A DNA stretch of 64,000 nt from Prochlorococcus sp. AG-418-D13 (GTDB lineage: Bacteria > Cyanobacteriota > Cyanobacteriia > PCC-6307 > Cyanobiaceae), in the NCBI GenBank assembly GCA_003214315.1, contig QCLU01000007.1:1-64000 (forward strand), given 5' to 3'. Each line of letters begins with the position of its first letter. Within the stretch, counting starts at the first letter, position 1. This document shows, piece by piece, positions 6,626 through 13,984 of the stretch. Both the position numbers and the translations under genes were made by a program. The notes under the pieces are model-generated. The model worked only from the letters and a program-made list of their open reading frames with translations, was not told the origin of the DNA and searched no databases.

Positions 6626-8794
6626 TTAATATCCAAAGTGATTTAACCATTTTTCAAGATATTGATTAGAATTTTCAAAATATTTTTCGTAATTTTTCCA
6701 CTTATCTATTGATGATTTATAAAGTGGTTGAACAACTTGTGAAGATGAGGGAGTATTTATTTTTTCTCTTCTATAAGCTGTATTTCTATAATTTTTAATA
6801 TTCTCATCCCATTTTAAGTCTAAAAAATCCAATATTTTTGAAATATGAGTGTCCAAATTATCTATCAAATCTTCATATTTCGAGGTGATAAAATTCATTT
6901 TTAATTTTGTCCTATAGTCTATCCACATATTCATTGTCAAATCATATATTTCAGAAGCTGATTCTATACTTCGGAAATTTGACATAGCATTATTAGGCTC
7001 AAATGATTGCTGGAAGCACGACAAGACAGTATCGTATGGATTTCTATGGGTAAAAATTATTTTTGAGTTTGGAAATAATAAATTGATGAGAGGTAAGCAA
7101 ACAGTTTGAAATGGAAATTTATCAATCAATATTTTTGCATTTTTTTTATCACAATTTTTTCTCAAAATTTCTAAATAGTAATTTCTTAAGAAATCTAGAT
7201 CTTTAATACTTAATTTATGGAGTTCATCTAGAGAACATTTGAATTTTGATTTTATAACTTGCTCCACAGAATTAATTAGAGGTTTTTCTTCTATAACATC
7301 AATTTCAGGATGACTTCTTAAAATAGTATCAAGCAATGTAGTCCCTGATCTTGGAAATCCAATTAAAAAAACAGGCGAAAATTTATTCTTATTTGAGGTC
7401 TTGTTTTTCACTACAAAATTATTATTATCTAAATTCTTTCTATAGGTCTGAATATAATTTTGGAAAATTTTGGGATTAAAATACCTATACTTTAAATTAA
7501 GTTGACTTTTCTCAAAACATTTAAATGCTTCATCATAATTTTTAACTTTTTCCTCAATAAATGCTCTAAAAGACCAATAAAGGAGATTTGTAGAATGATC
7601 AGTATTTTTTATCCATTCACTAGGTACTTGGTCAATTAAATTTTTTGCTTTAATGAAATCCTTTTCTCTAAAAGAGATTCTAGCTTTAAACATTAATAGT
7701 TCATTAACAATATTTTTATTTTCGTTTAAACTTTCTATCTTGTTTTTTAATTTGCTTATGTTGTTTGTTTTCTCGTAAAGCATAAAAAGATTTCTAAATG
7801 CATAATTATAGTTTTTGTTAATTTCAATTGCACTAAGGAATAATTCTTCAGCCTCTGATAACTTCTCTAGATCAATTTTAATTGACCCCAAATTAACATA
7901 AGCTAACTCAAATTTTGGATCATAAAATATAGCTTTTTCAGTGAATTTTTCTGCTTCAATAAGATCGCCCTGCTTTGATAGAAGAGAACCAAGATTATTA
8001 TAAGCAAGGGAGAAATTTGATTTTAATTTAATAGCTTTTCGATAACATAGTTCTGCATCATTATTATTATTCTTCTTTGTAAGGATATTACCTAAATTGT
8101 TTAGTGCCATTGGCGAAGTTGGATTTATAGTAAGCGCTTTTTTTAAAAATTGCTCTCCTTCATCAATCTTTTCTAAATCATTTAAAACCGCACCTAAATT
8201 AGTTAGTGCTATTTCGTATATGGGATTTATTTCAAGAGCATTTTTCAAGAATTTTTCGGCTTCCTTAAGTTTTCCTAAATCTTTCAGGACGCAGGCTAAA
8301 TTTACTAAAGAATTAATATCTTTTGAATTTATATCTACACTTTTTCTCAAAAATAGCTCTGCCTTTTTAAAATTACCTTCTCCTATGTATATGAGAGCCA
8401 AGTTTGAATATGGTCGTATGTAATTGGGATTTAATTCAATAGCTCTTTTTAAAATTTTTTTTGCGATATCACTTTTACCTTTAATAACTAATACATTCGC
8501 TAAGTTAGGGTATGCTTCCAAACTATTTGGGAATTTTTTTATTGACTCATCGAATAATAATATTGCTTTATCAAATTGCTTTAATTGAGAATAAATGCTT
8601 CCTAAATTATTAAATACCATGGGGTCATAAATTTTATTTTTGATTAAAAAATTATATATTTCTAACGCTTCTTTAATTTTCCCCTTTGAATGCAAAGATA
8701 ATGCATTGGAAATCAATTTATCTTTTTGGAAACTATTGGTTTTTTTTTCTATTGCCTTTTTGTTTGTTTTATTGTTGTTCCCAAATCCTTTCAT
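6626..8794 (-). CDS. TPR-repeat protein with C-terminal sulfotransferase domain
   Basis: 722 aa. Residues about 25-370 are at least nine consecutive 34-residue TPR units with the usual pattern (NLGAVLNDLEKIDEGEQFLK, A-x-xINP). Residues about 470-722 are a sulfotransferase domain. IGFPRSGTTLLDT at about 480 is the 5'-phosphosulfate loop for PAPS, and IIFTHRNPYDTVLS near 580 is the 3'-phosphate site. The fold and motif spacing resemble tyrosylprotein or Sulfotransfer_3-type enzymes. The expected reaction is transfer of sulfate from PAPS to a protein or glycan, with the TPR array binding the acceptor; the substrate is not visible. There is no signal peptide, so it is probably cytosolic. A relative lies at 10325-12142, and the two flank a porin gene. 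Confidence 0.85.
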   Translation of the reverse strand: MKGFGNNNKTNKKAIEKKTNSFQKDKLISNALSLHSKGKIKEALEIYNFLIKNKIYDPMVFNNLGSIYSQLKQFDKAILLFDESIKKFPNSLEAYPNLANVLVIKGKSDIAKKILKRAIELNPNYIRPYSNLALIYIGEGNFKKAELFLRKSVDINSKDINSLVNLACVLKDLGKLKEAEKFLKNALEINPIYEIALTNLGAVLNDLEKIDEGEQFLKKALTINPTSPMALNNLGNILTKKNNNNDAELCYRKAIKLKSNFSLAYNNLGSLLSKQGDLIEAEKFTEKAIFYDPKFELAYVNLGSIKIDLEKLSEAEELFLSAIEINKNYNYAFRNLFMLYEKTNNISKLKNKIESLNENKNIVNELLMFKARISFREKDFIKAKNLIDQVPSEWIKNTDHSTNLLYWSFRAFIEEKVKNYDEAFKCFEKSQLNLKYRYFNPKIFQNYIQTYRKNLDNNNFVVKNKTSNKNKFSPVFLIGFPRSGTTLLDTILRSHPEIDVIEEKPLINSVEQVIKSKFKCSLDELHKLSIKDLDFLRNYYLEILRKNCDKKNAKILIDKFPFQTVCLPLINLLFPNSKIIFTHRNPYDTVLSCFQQSFEPNNAMSNFRSIESASEIYDLTMNMWIDYRTKLKMNFITSKYEDLIDNLDTHISKILDFLDLKWDENIKNYRNTAYRREKINTPSSSQVVQPLYKSSIDKWKNYEKYFENSNQYLEKWLNHFGY

Positions 8795-9145
8795 GCTTTT
8801 GATCTTAATAATTCAGAAACTGTTTTGATTAAACGTAACTTTGAATAACTTATAGTATTGCTTAAAAATCAATAATTCTTGTGAATTTCAACAATAATAT
8901 CTGAAAAATTGTTTTTAGGGACACAAATATTATCGTCACATTTTCAATAATAAATTTTATCCCTTTTCTATAGTTCTCCTCAAACCCCTTTGATACCAAT
9001 TGATCTCGCATATTTAAGATAGTTTTTTTTTGTAAAAGAAATCAAAAAATTAAGTTGCAAGCAAAAAAGTATCTGTTGATACTTGAAATTATGATAATTT
9101 TTACGTTATTTTAAGGTGTACTTTAAATTTCGTGTGAGGAAATTT
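8795..9145. promoter_or_regulatory. Intergenic region upstream of porin 1 with a small hairpin
   Basis: 350 bases between the divergent sulfotransferase gene and porin 1, with no gene seen. A perfect seven-pair hairpin AAGTATC-tgtt-GATACTT lies at 9067-9084, some 60 bases before the porin start. It could lie in the leader or act as an operator. The last bases (gtgtgaggaaattt) carry a GAGGA ribosome site five bases before the ATG, shared with porin 2. Confidence 0.4.
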
Positions 9146-10186
9146 ATGAAGCTTTTTAAGAGCTTACTAGTAGCTCCTGCAACATTAGGCTTACTTGCCC
9201 CTGTTGCTGCGACTGCTAACGAAGTCACTATTAATGACTTCAACGCTGCAGAAGAAATTGCAGTTACAAATAGCCGTATTGACGGTTTAGAAGCTAGATT
9301 CAATAATCTTGAGGCTGGTTCATTCTCAGAAACAACTACAGCATCTTTCGGTGTTGATTTTCTTATTGGTGCTGAAGACGGAGCTTCTTCAGAGGCAGCA
9401 GCATTTGCCTACCAAATGGGTATCGGATTAGAAACCAGTTTTACTGGCGAAGATGCACTTAGCGCAACTATCGATATAGGTGATGGTGCTTCTGGCGCTT
9501 TGGCTTTTGATGATACTACTGATGTACTAACACTTGACGGACTTACATATACATTCCCAGTAGGTGGTTCAACAGTAATGGTTGGTGATTCAACTGACAT
9601 TAGTGCTGTATATACTGGAGCTTGTGCTTACAGTGCCTTCACTGATTACATGGGTAACTGTGGAACAGGAAGTACTGTTGGTGTAGGTGGTAATGGTGTT
9701 ACTGCAGCAATGTCATACGCTTTTGATAGCGGATTCTCATTAGCCGGTGGTATTTCATCTGAAACTACTTCAATTTTGACAGAAGAAGGTTCTGATACTT
9801 TCGGTATTGAAGCTGCATATACTGCAGATTCTTACGGAGTAGCAGTTGCTTATTCTGATGCGGAAGGAACAACTGGATGGGGAATTAACGGTATGTATGC
9901 CTTTGATTTCGCAACATTAAGTGCTGGTTTTGAAACTGTTGATTCTGGTTCATCAGCTGAAGGATTCTTTGTTGGTCTAAGTTTCTCTGAAGTTGGACCT
10001 GGTTCTCTTGACATAGGTATGGGAACAACAGGTAACTTCGCAGATGGTGATACTGAGTACTACACCTACGAAGCATCATACGCTTATCCTGTAAACGATG
10101 GAGTAACAATCACTCCTGGTGTTTACATCGTAGAGGGTGCAACTGACGTAACTGGTGTTGCTGTTAAAACATCATTTAGTTTCTAA
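9146..10186 (+). CDS. Outer-membrane porin, copy 1
   Basis: 346 aa, starting at the ATG at 9146. An upstream in-frame ATG at 9116 is rejected because the GAGGA site at 9136-9140 and the signal peptide (MKLFKSLLVAPATLGLLAPV…ATA) fit 9146 and match porin 2. After a short linker with a coiled-coil-like stretch (SRIDGLEARFNNLEAG), the chain is a Gly/Ala/Thr-rich antiparallel barrel ending in Phe (VKTSFSF), the usual outer-membrane insertion signal. Picocyanobacterial porins of this type normally carry an N-terminal SLH domain; none is seen here. From 9322 on, the sequence is identical to porin 2 except at 9659 (Cys codon TGT against Gly GGT). Confidence 0.85.
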   Translation: MKLFKSLLVAPATLGLLAPVAATANEVTINDFNAAEEIAVTNSRIDGLEARFNNLEAGSFSETTTASFGVDFLIGAEDGASSEAAAFAYQMGIGLETSFTGEDALSATIDIGDGASGALAFDDTTDVLTLDGLTYTFPVGGSTVMVGDSTDISAVYTGACAYSAFTDYMGNCGTGSTVGVGGNGVTAAMSYAFDSGFSLAGGISSETTSILTEEGSDTFGIEAAYTADSYGVAVAYSDAEGTTGWGINGMYAFDFATLSAGFETVDSGSSAEGFFVGLSFSEVGPGSLDIGMGTTGNFADGDTEYYTYEASYAYPVNDGVTITPGVYIVEGATDVTGVAVKTSFSF

Positions 10187-10253
10187 TTAATCTAATTTAA
10201 TTATTAATTAAAATTACACACTTAAAAAGACCTGCCTAATGGCAGGTCTTTTT
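9322..10253 (+). repeat. Near-identical 932-bp direct repeat, copy 1
   Basis: It covers the barrel-coding part of porin 1, the 3' untranslated bases and the terminator. It matches 12442-13373 with a single difference (T9659 against G12779), read line by line. The offset is 3120 bases. Upstream of 9322 the two genes share only a signal-peptide pattern. Confidence 0.97.
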
Positions 10254-10254
10254 T
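10224..10254 (+). terminator. Rho-independent terminator of porin 1
   Basis: Stem aaaaagacctgcc / ggcaggtcttttt with loop taat, followed by a T-run. It lies 37 bases after the porin stop and is copied in porin 2. Confidence 0.92.
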
Positions 10255-10324
10255 ATTGAAAAAAATTTTTAACGTAAAATAAATGTATTATTAATTATAA
10301 AAGTATTATTTCTTTTGAATTAAA

Positions 10325-12142
10325 ATGAAGAAGAATTCATTAGAAATAACAAAATATATTCAAATTGCAAGAAAGAAGCAAAAAGAAGGAAATATATATC
10401 AAGCAAATGAAATTTATAAGAATTTAATTAATCAAAAAATTTATACCTATGATCTACTTATTTCATACGGACTATTTTGTAAAGAGATTAATAATCTAAA
10501 GATTGCAAAAAACTTATTTTTTTTATCTATTAAGAAATATCCATTAAAAATTAATTCATATATATTTCTTGCTGAAATTTTAAGAAAAGAGAATAATATT
10601 AATGATGCTTTAAAAACATTGTATGCGGCAAAAAAAATAGAAAAATTCAATTCTGAAATTGACTATAACCTATCCATCACATTTAAAACTATTCAATCAT
10701 TTAAAGAGGCAATACTTTCTATTGAATCTGCCATAAATCAGAATCCTGATAATCAAATATATCAAATTTTAAAAGCCGATATACTTATCGAATCATCAAA
10801 CAATGAAGATGCAAAAGAATTATTGCTTAATTTGAAATTTCCAAAAGATAGCATATTATTTTTTCAGAGGGAAATTTTACTTTCAAAGATTTTTATTAAT
10901 GAAAAGAAATATAGATTAGCTGAAGAGATTCTTTTGGGATTAAGAAAATTATTTAGTAAAGAGAGAATTTTATACCTTAATCTGAGTGATCTTTATTTCA
11001 AAAATAAAGAATTAGAAAAAGGAATTTTAATTTTGAAAGAAGGCATTACAAATTTTCCAAAATTTATTCCTTTAAAATTTAATTTGGGGATTATGTACAG
11101 AAATTTAGGGTTAATAGAATTATCTATTAAAACGCATTTGGAAATCTTGTTAGATGATCAATTTAATTCAAATAGTTATTATGAATTATCAACTATGTAC
11201 AATTTCTCAAATCATAATAAGCAATTAGAAACTCTTCTAAATATTGAGATAGAAAACCTCTCTCAAAAGGAAAAAATATATTTTTGTTATTCAAAAGCAA
11301 ATGTCTATCATAGTAATAGAGATTTTAAAAAAAGCGCATATTTTCTCAAAATAGCCAATGAAGAAAAACTAAAGTTTCAACCATCTGATATAAAAATAAA
11401 GTTGAATACTGGTGAATACTTCAGGAATTTAAAGATAGATCAGAATTTAAATTTTGATAAAGTAAAAGATAGTAATCGATATTTATTTATTGTTGGGATG
11501 CCTAGGTGTGGAAGTACATTGTTAGAAAGTATTTTAAGTCTTAATCCTGAAGTTAAAGATCTTGGAGAAGTTTCTTTTTTAGAGGAATCTCTTCAGAAAT
11601 CTGATGATTTGCTTGAAGTTAAAAATCTATATAAAGAAAAAGTCATGTTAATCAATTCAAAAAAGAAAATCTTTACAGATAAAAATTTGTTTAACTTTTT
11701 ATATTGTCCAATTATTTATGAATTGTTCCCTAATTCAAGGATTATTCACTGTATTAGAAATCCACTTGATAATATTCTTTCTATTTATAGAACTAACTTT
11801 TTAAATCAAAGTTTTTCAAGTTCGTTAAATGATATTTCTGATTTATATTTGTATCAAATAAATCTCATGAATGAATATAAAAGCAAATTTGGGTCAATCA
11901 TATATAGCTACGATCATGAGAGAGTAATTCAGAATCCTAAAGAAACTATTCATGATTTAATAAATTGGCTTGATTGGGAGTGGAGTGAAAAATATCTCTC
12001 ACCTCAAAAAAATAAAAGAAGTGTATTCACCGCAAGTAGTGCTCAAGTTCGAAAAAAAATAAATTCATACTCTTCAGGTTTTTGGAAAAATTATGAGGAT
12101 TTGTTAGAACCTATTATTGAACTGTTTCCCACGTACAATTAA
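10325..12142 (+). CDS. TPR-like protein with C-terminal sulfotransferase domain, second member
   Basis: 605 aa. Residues about 10-350 form degenerate, very AT-coded TPR-like helical repeats. Residues about 385-605 are a sulfotransferase domain. IVGMPRCGSTLLESILSLNP at about 390 is the PAPS 5'-phosphosulfate loop (PRCGST), and RIIHCIRNPLDNILSIYRTN is the 3'-phosphate region. It shares architecture with the 6626-8794 gene but only low sequence similarity, so it is not a recent duplicate. It stands between the two near-identical porins, in the same direction, 71 bases after the terminator of porin 1. The substrate is unknown; the surface-gene context suggests modification of an envelope component. 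Confidence 0.85.
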   Translation: MKKNSLEITKYIQIARKKQKEGNIYQANEIYKNLINQKIYTYDLLISYGLFCKEINNLKIAKNLFFLSIKKYPLKINSYIFLAEILRKENNINDALKTLYAAKKIEKFNSEIDYNLSITFKTIQSFKEAILSIESAINQNPDNQIYQILKADILIESSNNEDAKELLLNLKFPKDSILFFQREILLSKIFINEKKYRLAEEILLGLRKLFSKERILYLNLSDLYFKNKELEKGILILKEGITNFPKFIPLKFNLGIMYRNLGLIELSIKTHLEILLDDQFNSNSYYELSTMYNFSNHNKQLETLLNIEIENLSQKEKIYFCYSKANVYHSNRDFKKSAYFLKIANEEKLKFQPSDIKIKLNTGEYFRNLKIDQNLNFDKVKDSNRYLFIVGMPRCGSTLLESILSLNPEVKDLGEVSFLEESLQKSDDLLEVKNLYKEKVMLINSKKKIFTDKNLFNFLYCPIIYELFPNSRIIHCIRNPLDNILSIYRTNFLNQSFSSSLNDISDLYLYQINLMNEYKSKFGSIIYSYDHERVIQNPKETIHDLINWLDWEWSEKYLSPQKNKRSVFTASSAQVRKKINSYSSGFWKNYEDLLEPIIELFPTYN

Positions 12143-12161
12143 TTAAATGGCTTAGCAGCTT

Positions 12162-12189
12162 TTGCAATTAATTTATTTTGCACTAAAAT
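12162..12189 (+). promoter_or_regulatory. Possible promoter of porin 2
   Basis: TTGCAA at 12162-12167 and TAAAAT at 12184-12189 with a 16-base spacer, ending 34 bases before the ATG. This is a sigma-70-like match only; it is not conserved upstream of porin 1. Confidence 0.35.
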
Positions 12190-12223
12190 AAGTTGATAAA
12201 ATAATTCTGTGTGAGGAATTTTC

Positions 12224-13306
12224 ATGAAGCTATTCCAGCAATTATTGTTAGCTCCAGCGGCTTTTAGTCTTTTATCACCACTAACCGCTATTGCTTCCGA
12301 AGTTAATCTTGATGCTATTTCTAAATACTCTGAAGATAATTTAGAGATAGATAGAAATTTATTTAAACAAAACTCTCCAAATAATATTTTACTCTCAGGA
12401 GGAGAAGGTTTAGTTGATGATAGCAGTGATATTACTACTGGATTCTCAGAAACAACTACAGCATCTTTCGGTGTTGATTTTCTTATTGGTGCTGAAGACG
12501 GAGCTTCTTCAGAGGCAGCAGCATTTGCCTACCAAATGGGTATCGGATTAGAAACCAGTTTTACTGGCGAAGATGCACTTAGCGCAACTATCGATATAGG
12601 TGATGGTGCTTCTGGCGCTTTGGCTTTTGATGATACTACTGATGTACTAACACTTGACGGACTTACATATACATTCCCAGTAGGTGGTTCAACAGTAATG
12701 GTTGGTGATTCAACTGACATTAGTGCTGTATATACTGGAGCTTGTGCTTACAGTGCCTTCACTGATTACATGGGTAACGGTGGAACAGGAAGTACTGTTG
12801 GTGTAGGTGGTAATGGTGTTACTGCAGCAATGTCATACGCTTTTGATAGCGGATTCTCATTAGCCGGTGGTATTTCATCTGAAACTACTTCAATTTTGAC
12901 AGAAGAAGGTTCTGATACTTTCGGTATTGAAGCTGCATATACTGCAGATTCTTACGGAGTAGCAGTTGCTTATTCTGATGCGGAAGGAACAACTGGATGG
13001 GGAATTAACGGTATGTATGCCTTTGATTTCGCAACATTAAGTGCTGGTTTTGAAACTGTTGATTCTGGTTCATCAGCTGAAGGATTCTTTGTTGGTCTAA
13101 GTTTCTCTGAAGTTGGACCTGGTTCTCTTGACATAGGTATGGGAACAACAGGTAACTTCGCAGATGGTGATACTGAGTACTACACCTACGAAGCATCATA
13201 CGCTTATCCTGTAAACGATGGAGTAACAATCACTCCTGGTGTTTACATCGTAGAGGGTGCAACTGACGTAACTGGTGTTGCTGTTAAAACATCATTTAGT
13301 TTCTAA
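12224..13306 (+). CDS. Outer-membrane porin, copy 2
   Basis: 360 aa. It has a signal peptide (MKLFQQLLLAPAAFSLLSPL…AIAS) and a GAGGA site six bases upstream. Residues about 25-73 form a unique Asn/Asp/Ser-rich linker (SKYSEDNLEIDRNLF) that has no counterpart in porin 1. From residue 74 to the C-terminal Phe it is the same barrel as porin 1, with one change (Gly instead of Cys in YMGNGGTG). The role is passive outer-membrane passage of small solutes, by family. The abrupt switch from unrelated to identical sequence at 12442 argues for gene conversion into an older paralogue, or N-terminal replacement after duplication. Confidence 0.85.
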   Translation: MKLFQQLLLAPAAFSLLSPLTAIASEVNLDAISKYSEDNLEIDRNLFKQNSPNNILLSGGEGLVDDSSDITTGFSETTTASFGVDFLIGAEDGASSEAAAFAYQMGIGLETSFTGEDALSATIDIGDGASGALAFDDTTDVLTLDGLTYTFPVGGSTVMVGDSTDISAVYTGACAYSAFTDYMGNGGTGSTVGVGGNGVTAAMSYAFDSGFSLAGGISSETTSILTEEGSDTFGIEAAYTADSYGVAVAYSDAEGTTGWGINGMYAFDFATLSAGFETVDSGSSAEGFFVGLSFSEVGPGSLDIGMGTTGNFADGDTEYYTYEASYAYPVNDGVTITPGVYIVEGATDVTGVAVKTSFSF

Positions 13307-13373
13307 TTAATCTAATTTAATTATTAATTAAAATTACACACTTAAAAAGACCTGCCTAATGGCAGGTCTTTTT
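12442..13373 (+). repeat. Near-identical 932-bp direct repeat, copy 2
   Basis: Partner of 9322-10253 with a single base difference (G12779). The right end of identity falls inside the T-run of the terminator. Confidence 0.97.
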
Positions 13374-13420: not shown

Positions 13421-13549
13421 ATGACCCCGATATTTAAATGTTTGATTTGTAGAAAAGATATTGAAAGATCTACAAAGACATTTTGGAGTAAAAAAGGTCA
13501 CCTATTATGTTCTACCTGCTTGGACAATATAGATAAAAAGAAAACTTAA
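13421..13549 (+). CDS. Small zinc-ribbon-like protein, 42 aa
   Basis: An ATG frame of 42 codons. Two CxxC pairs (CLIC at residues 7-10 and CSTC at 30-33), 19 residues apart, with Lys/Arg around them (RKDIERSTKTFWSKKGH), fit a treble-clef or ribbon metal site. I know no named family. Such mini-ribbons may bind nucleic acid or a protein partner, but no role can be read here. Confidence 0.6.
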   Translation: MTPIFKCLICRKDIERSTKTFWSKKGHLLCSTCLDNIDKKKT

Positions 13550-13876: not shown

Positions 13877-13984
13877 TTAAAACCAACCTGGAATGATTTG
13901 TCCTGTTGTTACATATGCACCAACTGCTGCAACGAAACCTAACATTGCGGCCCAACCATTAAAACGTTCTGCTTCAGGAGTCAT
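13877..13984 (-). CDS. hli: High-light-inducible protein, short form
   Basis: 35 aa. The single helix carries the chlorophyll-a/b-binding signature: E-x2-NGWAAMLGFVAAVGA, then a TGQIIPGW tail. In the family, Hlips bind chlorophyll and carotenoid in the thylakoid, and protect photosystem assembly intermediates under light stress. Picocyanobacteria carry many copies of this minimal form. A sigma-70-like promoter lies about 30 bases upstream, so the gene is probably a single transcript. Confidence 0.92.
   Translation of the reverse strand: MTPEAERFNGWAAMLGFVAAVGAYVTTGQIIPGWF

Follow-up and report, generated by a model that had tools for sequence, protein, structure and literature searches.

Introduction

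Studies have shown that concerted evolution can act on one part of paralogous bacterial genes. For example, in the babA/babB and homA/homB pairs of Helicobacter pylori, the 3' segments evolve in concert within a strain, and the 5' segments of each locus are alike between strains (PMC3960876). The adjacent porin genes omp2a and omp2b of Brucella exchange sequence by gene conversion, sometimes to full identity (PMC7050475). Wang and Chen (2018) described lasting and recurrent concerted evolution in prokaryotes for psbA, psbD and other genes (PMC6053082).

In this study, we analysed 64,000 nucleotides of Prochlorococcus sp. AG-418-D13 (the window), which contain two porin genes, A and B, with a nearly identical 3' part. 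We believe, with a probability of roughly 92%, that these are two old syntenic paralogous porins, the counterparts of PMM1121 and PMM1119 of strain MED4, under segmental concerted evolution by ongoing gene conversion. Like babA/babB and homA/homB, they are paralogous outer-membrane genes with a concerted 3' part and a locus-specific 5' part. In contrast to the Helicobacter pairs, which are adhesins, they are presumed general porins lying in tandem with starts 1.2–3.3 kb apart, and the pattern is genus-wide, with barrels down to 53% identical between genomes. The Brucella genes are inverted and their conversion is patchy, whereas here the genes are direct repeats, and in most pairs homogenisation extends over the whole stretch that starts with the first barrel codons and closes with the terminator; moreover, only omp2b has been reported as expressed in Brucella, and both MED4 counterparts are reported as expressed. 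Similar to psbA and psbD, the loci are syntenic paralogues with recurrent homogenisation that includes synonymous sites. However, the survey of Wang and Chen deals with genes homogenised over their full length and leaves partial cases to future work, whereas homogenisation here is partial; word counts gave zero mentions of "porin" or "Prochlorococcus" in its main text (PMC6053082). We found no report of concerted evolution in Prochlorococcus porins in the open-access literature. The process is known from Helicobacter babA/babB, and the Prochlorococcus porins are a new case of it.

Results and Discussion

The two porin genes and the repeated tract

The features of the locus, all on the forward strand, are as follows.

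9132–9140: leader GTGTGAGGA of porin A, over the ribosome-binding region, complementary to the Yfr1 motif ACUCCUCACAC
9146–10186: porin gene A, 346 aa
9146–9319: A-specific signal peptide and short coiled-coil-like linker, NEVTINDFNAAEEIAVTNSRIDGLEARFNNLEAG
9322–10253: homogenised tract, copy A (barrel 9323–10186, 3' UTR, terminator)
9659: single mismatch, A side (T, Cys172 of A)
10325–12142: TPR-sulfotransferase gene between the two porins, 24% GC
12209–12217: leader GTGTGAGGA of porin B
12224–13306: porin gene B, 360 aa
12224–12442: B-specific signal peptide and linker, SEVNLDAISKYS...LLSGGEGLVDDSSDITTG
12442–13373: homogenised tract, copy B (barrel 12443–13306, 3' UTR, terminator)
12779: single mismatch, B side (G, Gly186 of B), in a column that is Cys in 110 of 114 sequences
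13421–13549: small ORF, 3' of porin B, containing two CxxC motifs, MTPIFKCLICRKDIERSTKTFWSKKGHLLCSTCLDNIDKKKT

A preliminary description of this DNA had reported two porins equal at 931 of 932 bases over the barrel, 3' UTR and terminator, with an abrupt start at 9322/12442 and one Cys to Gly change in a loop. Exact comparison at an offset of 3120 reproduced all of this to the base: 9322–10253 equals 12442–13373 except for T9659 (TGT) against G12779 (GGT), and the changed residue falls in the loop between strands 5 and 6 of the structure model. The tract spans the stop codon, the 3' UTR and the terminator hairpin, its right edge lies inside the terminator T-run, and in the flanks the identity of 20-base windows mostly falls to 10–45%. 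It was the only direct repeat of at least 60 bases in the window, and no third full-length copy was found in the 1.62 Mb assembly (23 contigs). We place the start of porin A at the ATG (9146) that comes after the leader, and not at the GTG further upstream (9116) given in the ORF list.

A repeat collapsed or copied during assembly could produce such a picture, as the window comes from a 23-contig draft and many of the relatives are single-cell assemblies. However, the same pattern was found in closed single-contig genomes, where the identity of the A and B barrels was 1.000 (G108), 1.000 (G171), 0.998 (G040) and 0.993 (G015). The two copies in the window also differ by one base and lie in unique flanks, and the synteny is conserved, so we give an artefact practically no weight.

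The TPR-sulfotransferase gene is present between the porins in some Prochlorococcus genomes and absent in others, and the porin spacing is approximately 3.1 kb with it and 1.2–1.3 kb without it. A second TPR-sulfotransferase gene lies in the window at 6626–8794 on the reverse strand. The DNA of the small ORF at 13421–13549 is conserved 3' of porin B across the genus and served as the marker of the B flank in single-gene genomes. A 35-codon ORF, MTPEAERFNGWAAMLGFVAAVGAYVTTGQIIPGWF, at 13877–13984 on the reverse strand has what we take to be a resemblance to a high-light-inducible protein.

Barrels within and between genomes

Relatives were present in 186 of the 200 Prochlorococcus genomes that we searched, and we extracted 80 regions (one of them twice); the genomes were the top-scoring matches to the B protein of this genome, so their proportions are not an unbiased picture of the genus. 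Both loci were available in 59 genomes, 53 in a first set and 6 in a further one. The A and B barrels of one genome were at least 99% identical in DNA in 47 of the 59 (41/53 and 6/6, respectively). The within-genome identity had a median of 1.000 in the first 53 genomes and was 99.6–100% in the 6 further pairs, whereas A barrels compared between genomes had a median of 60% (range 53–96.5%). A tree of the barrels joined A and B from the same genome as sisters in 52 of 59 cases. The paralogues are thus more alike within a genome than the orthologues are between genomes (1.000 against 0.60).

The loci themselves are old and syntenic rather than fresh duplicates. Their order was the same across pairs, the starts were 1.2–3.3 kb apart, trmFO followed downstream wherever the region reached that far, and the N-termini formed A and B groups.

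The preliminary description had read the identity as very recent gene conversion or domain swapping. Gene conversion stands, whereas a single recent event does not, because conversion is recurrent across the genus and 52 of the 59 genomes have matched barrels whose sequence is particular to that genome. A single event of very recent date and confined to this strain, be it a conversion, a domain swap or a duplication, would fit the 931/932 identity and its sharp left edge; however, it leaves aside the separately matched barrels of dozens of genomes and the N-terminal types common to the whole genus, and we consider it very unlikely. The genus-wide pattern refutes a single event as the full explanation, although the last such event in this strain must be recent.

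The 47 homogenised pairs had 21 differences in 42,408 interior sites, 37 pairs had none at all, and synonymous codon differences numbered 6 over all 47. This indicates that synonymous sites were homogenised too, and therefore that the identity did not arise by convergence under protein selection. Changes were also common to both copies of this genome: for four of the seven relatives compared, every site at which the A barrel of this genome differs from that of the relative was shared by its B barrel (35/35, 69/69, 96/96 and 139/139). Sharing was complete in six of the seven comparisons, setting aside one extra difference in the B copy of this genome, and nearly complete in the other.

Homogenisation can lapse, since seven pairs were not sisters (G022, G103, G136, G106, G112, G182 and G192) and several others had a barrel identity of only 87–96%. 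In G022, G103 and G136 (L110, L115 and L116), a B-type N-terminus is combined with a barrel that has diverged strongly and lacks the two loop cysteines described below, which suggests that the barrel at locus B was replaced from another porin family. G028 carries three tandem porin genes (L106, 1541–5431, forward strand), the third with another N-terminal type.

Limits of the homogenised tract

The left edge of identity in the homogenised pairs is at the first barrel codons (FSETT), and the right edge lies within the terminator hairpin or shortly past it in most of them; it comes earlier in some pairs, such as G015, G053 and G148. Beyond the ends of the tract, there is little homology between the A and B loci. 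The limits of the tract thus match the limits of homology, which is the behaviour expected of homologous recombination between repeats. Copy B of G066 (L109, 2758–3903, forward strand) has a chimeric N-terminus with an A-like start and a B-like end, NEVTINDFNPAVEETLLAGGEGLVD, so conversion can enter the linker.

N-terminal segments

In the 53 genomes with both genes complete, the N-terminal DNA of A and B was approximately 48% identical. The preliminary description had called the N-termini unrelated. The difference is real, but "unrelated" goes too far, because the signal peptides of A and B can be aligned (MKLFxxLLxAPA...) and a longer porin encoded in this genome (L007) contains stretches corresponding to each of the two segments.

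The same description had proposed that the linkers are free to differ, and we found no support for this. No other part of the protein is as conserved as the A linker, whose median amino acid identity between genomes was 84% compared with 51% for the barrel, and whose dN was 0 in comparison with five of eight relatives that do differ in other genes. The B linkers are less conserved than those of A (57% identity; mean entropy of 1.17 bits against 0.40 bits), and they form a conserved group of their own. Separate conservation of the N-terminal segments and the barrels, which had been suggested as a check, was found: the N-terminal tree split into A and B types with 2 of 114 sequences misplaced.

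The longer porin contains, in order, a YS motif, a short-SLH-like stretch (DWAYDSLKDL...RLEAAAELN), for which we found no Pfam match, NNLIAGGEGLMN and ELAIMKGRVDGLEARVNGIEAGSFSETTT. Porin A retains the last of these elements (EIAVTNSRIDGLEARFNNLEAGSFSETTT), and the match to the profile NF033921 runs from that linker onward. Porin B retains the first and the third (ISKYS ... NNILLSGGEGLVD); the automatic alignment put the motif of B at another place in the longer porin. The likeliest origin of the two N-termini is a pair of complementary internal deletions of an ancestral longer Som-porin linker. For A, the profile match makes the linker look like such a deletion product; for B, a short motif points to a putative one. 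In the structure models, the pLDDT was below 50 at residues 1–60 of A and 1–75 of B.

Genomes with a single gene

Ten genomes had one porin gene at the locus, composed of an A-type N-terminus, a barrel and the downstream flank of B. When the flanks were read directly, the 3' side held the conserved small-ORF DNA and then trmFO, without the sulfotransferase gene. Such a fused gene is what recombination between the repeats should leave behind when it loops out the DNA between them. On the barrel tree, which is not a species tree, seven of the ten single-gene genomes lay beside different pair-bearing lineages, and therefore the deletion probably happened several times.

The occurrence of single-gene genomes beside pair-bearing ones would also fit birth and death, in which single-gene lineages re-duplicate in tandem again and again, with losses. 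A fresh duplicate would, however, put an A-type N-terminus at locus B, where the B types form one conserved group throughout the genus, and all ten single-gene genomes retain the A type, as loop-out deletion predicts. We consider recurrent re-duplication highly improbable. At locus B of G013, G102 and G105, the N-terminus is of the A type or close to it, which may reflect conversion or re-duplication.

Fold, family and the cysteine change

The model of A is a 16-strand porin barrel, as in the Som/SLH class. Strands 5 and 6 are joined by a loop of 36 residues, at the place where classical porins have their constriction loop. The structural matches of the model were classical porins, and the best in the PDB was OprB (Z 21.7, rmsd 3.1 over 280 residues), with many other matches within approximately 2.5 Z units of it. 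Like Som/SLH porins (NF033921), the genes have a partial profile match, a predicted 16-strand barrel ending in Phe and a linker 5' of the barrel. Unlike them, neither A nor B has a Pfam match to an SLH domain before the barrel, where the linker is too short for one, and the NF033921 scores of 58.5 and 38.7 bits are below the curated cut-off of 100. No Pfam porin family was assigned to A or B, the KdgM match (E 0.1) being below the cut-off, and a sequence search of the longer paralogue against solved structures returned nothing relevant.

The strand 5–6 loop contains two cysteines, present in 111 and 110 of 114 sequences, respectively. Both are missing from the three divergent barrels at locus B (G022, G103 and G136), and the B copy of this genome alone among the typical barrels lacks the second. 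The Cys to Gly change thus affects a cysteine that is almost invariant in what is presumed to be the constriction loop. This points to a recent mutation, perhaps mildly harmful and still to be overwritten, or to a sequencing error.

We also considered a role as phosphate porins. PMM1119 and "PMM112" have been called inducible by P limitation (PMC3898218), and another paper names PhoE as the P-stress porin; we therefore make no claim on the substrate.

The shared leader

Both genes were said in the preliminary description to share the leader GTGTGAGGA, and it was indeed found at 9132 and 12209, each just 5' of a start codon and nowhere else in the window on either strand. The leader precedes 109 of the 117 porin genes examined. 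The genome also carries a Yfr1 gene (G000:C7:77437-77490, 58 bits) with ACTCCTCACAC, beside trxA. With its complementarity to Yfr1 over the ribosome-binding region, the leader matches the site bound by this sRNA. The MED4 porins PMM1119 and PMM1121 are published Yfr1 targets whose translation is repressed (PMC6778093), they have been described as products of gene duplication (PMC6778093; PMC3142192), and they are reported to be strongly transcribed (PMC3898218). Since the leader is outside the converted tract, it is presumably kept at each locus by selection and not by copying.

Proposed mechanism and the role of selection

In our proposal, homologous recombination of the RecA type between the barrel repeats would repeatedly overwrite one barrel, 3' UTR and terminator with the other. 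The copied stretch would end where homology ends, on the left at the first barrel codons, as the linkers have diverged, and on the right generally at the terminator. The upstream region, the leader of Yfr1 type, the signal peptide and the linker would thereby stay specific to each locus, and the pore and surface loops would be equal in the two proteins and change together between strains. An occasional crossover of the repeats would delete the front end of B and any intervening gene, resulting in one gene with the A front, a barrel and the B flank. The homogenisation, the limits of the tract, the separate conservation of the two N-termini and the single-gene products are all shown by the sequences. 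Conversion is read here from this pattern and not from an event seen directly, and its dependence on RecA is what we infer.

Conversion between E. coli rRNA operons has been measured at 8.6e-6 per operon per donor per generation (PMC8022953). At this rate, passive conversion would be fast enough, and special machinery would be unneeded. In the closest comparison, the dS of the barrel was 0.094, compared with 0.318 for trmFO and 0.175 for the sulfotransferase gene. The synonymous divergence of the barrel is not above that of the flanking genes and so demands no special driver; a barrel that is hypervariable relative to its flanks, or a mutation hot spot, was rejected on these values. GC-biased conversion was not supported either, because the GC3 of the barrel (0.21) was not above that of the N-terminal segments (0.28 and 0.21) or of the single-gene barrels (0.21). 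We further infer that the pair is maintained because selection favours two equivalent pores at high expression, and not simply because the genes lie close together.

In addition to conversion, selection might favour homogenisation itself: phages or grazers would target the surface loops, and with a new barrel copied to both loci the cell could exchange its entire major porin surface in two steps. Variation and length changes were mostly in the longer loops (79–84, 114–128, 210–216, 267–269 and 295–305) and far fewer in the short turns, and the dN/dS of the barrel was approximately 0.22–0.35 compared with approximately 0.10 for trmFO. However, these dN/dS values are well below 1, passive conversion is sufficient, and we found no phage-receptor evidence for these porins; we regard this addition to gene conversion as doubtful. 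Equally tentative is our speculation that the barrel is a shared cassette joined to two fixed, separately selected N-terminal address modules for different envelope contacts or assembly partners. The modules would be the complementary remains of an ancestral SLH-linker, and conversion would hold the exposed pores identical and so spread receptor-changing alleles to both porins.

Conclusions

The genes described here are counterparts of highly expressed porins in one of the most abundant phototrophs of the ocean. The pattern found here shows that the outer surface of both porins changes as a unit between strains, with the Yfr1 leader and the N-terminal modules fixed at each locus. Trees based on the barrel, and read mapping to it, are unable to separate A from B, which is a warning for studies of these genes. 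The pair offers a clear natural example of concerted evolution limited to part of a gene.
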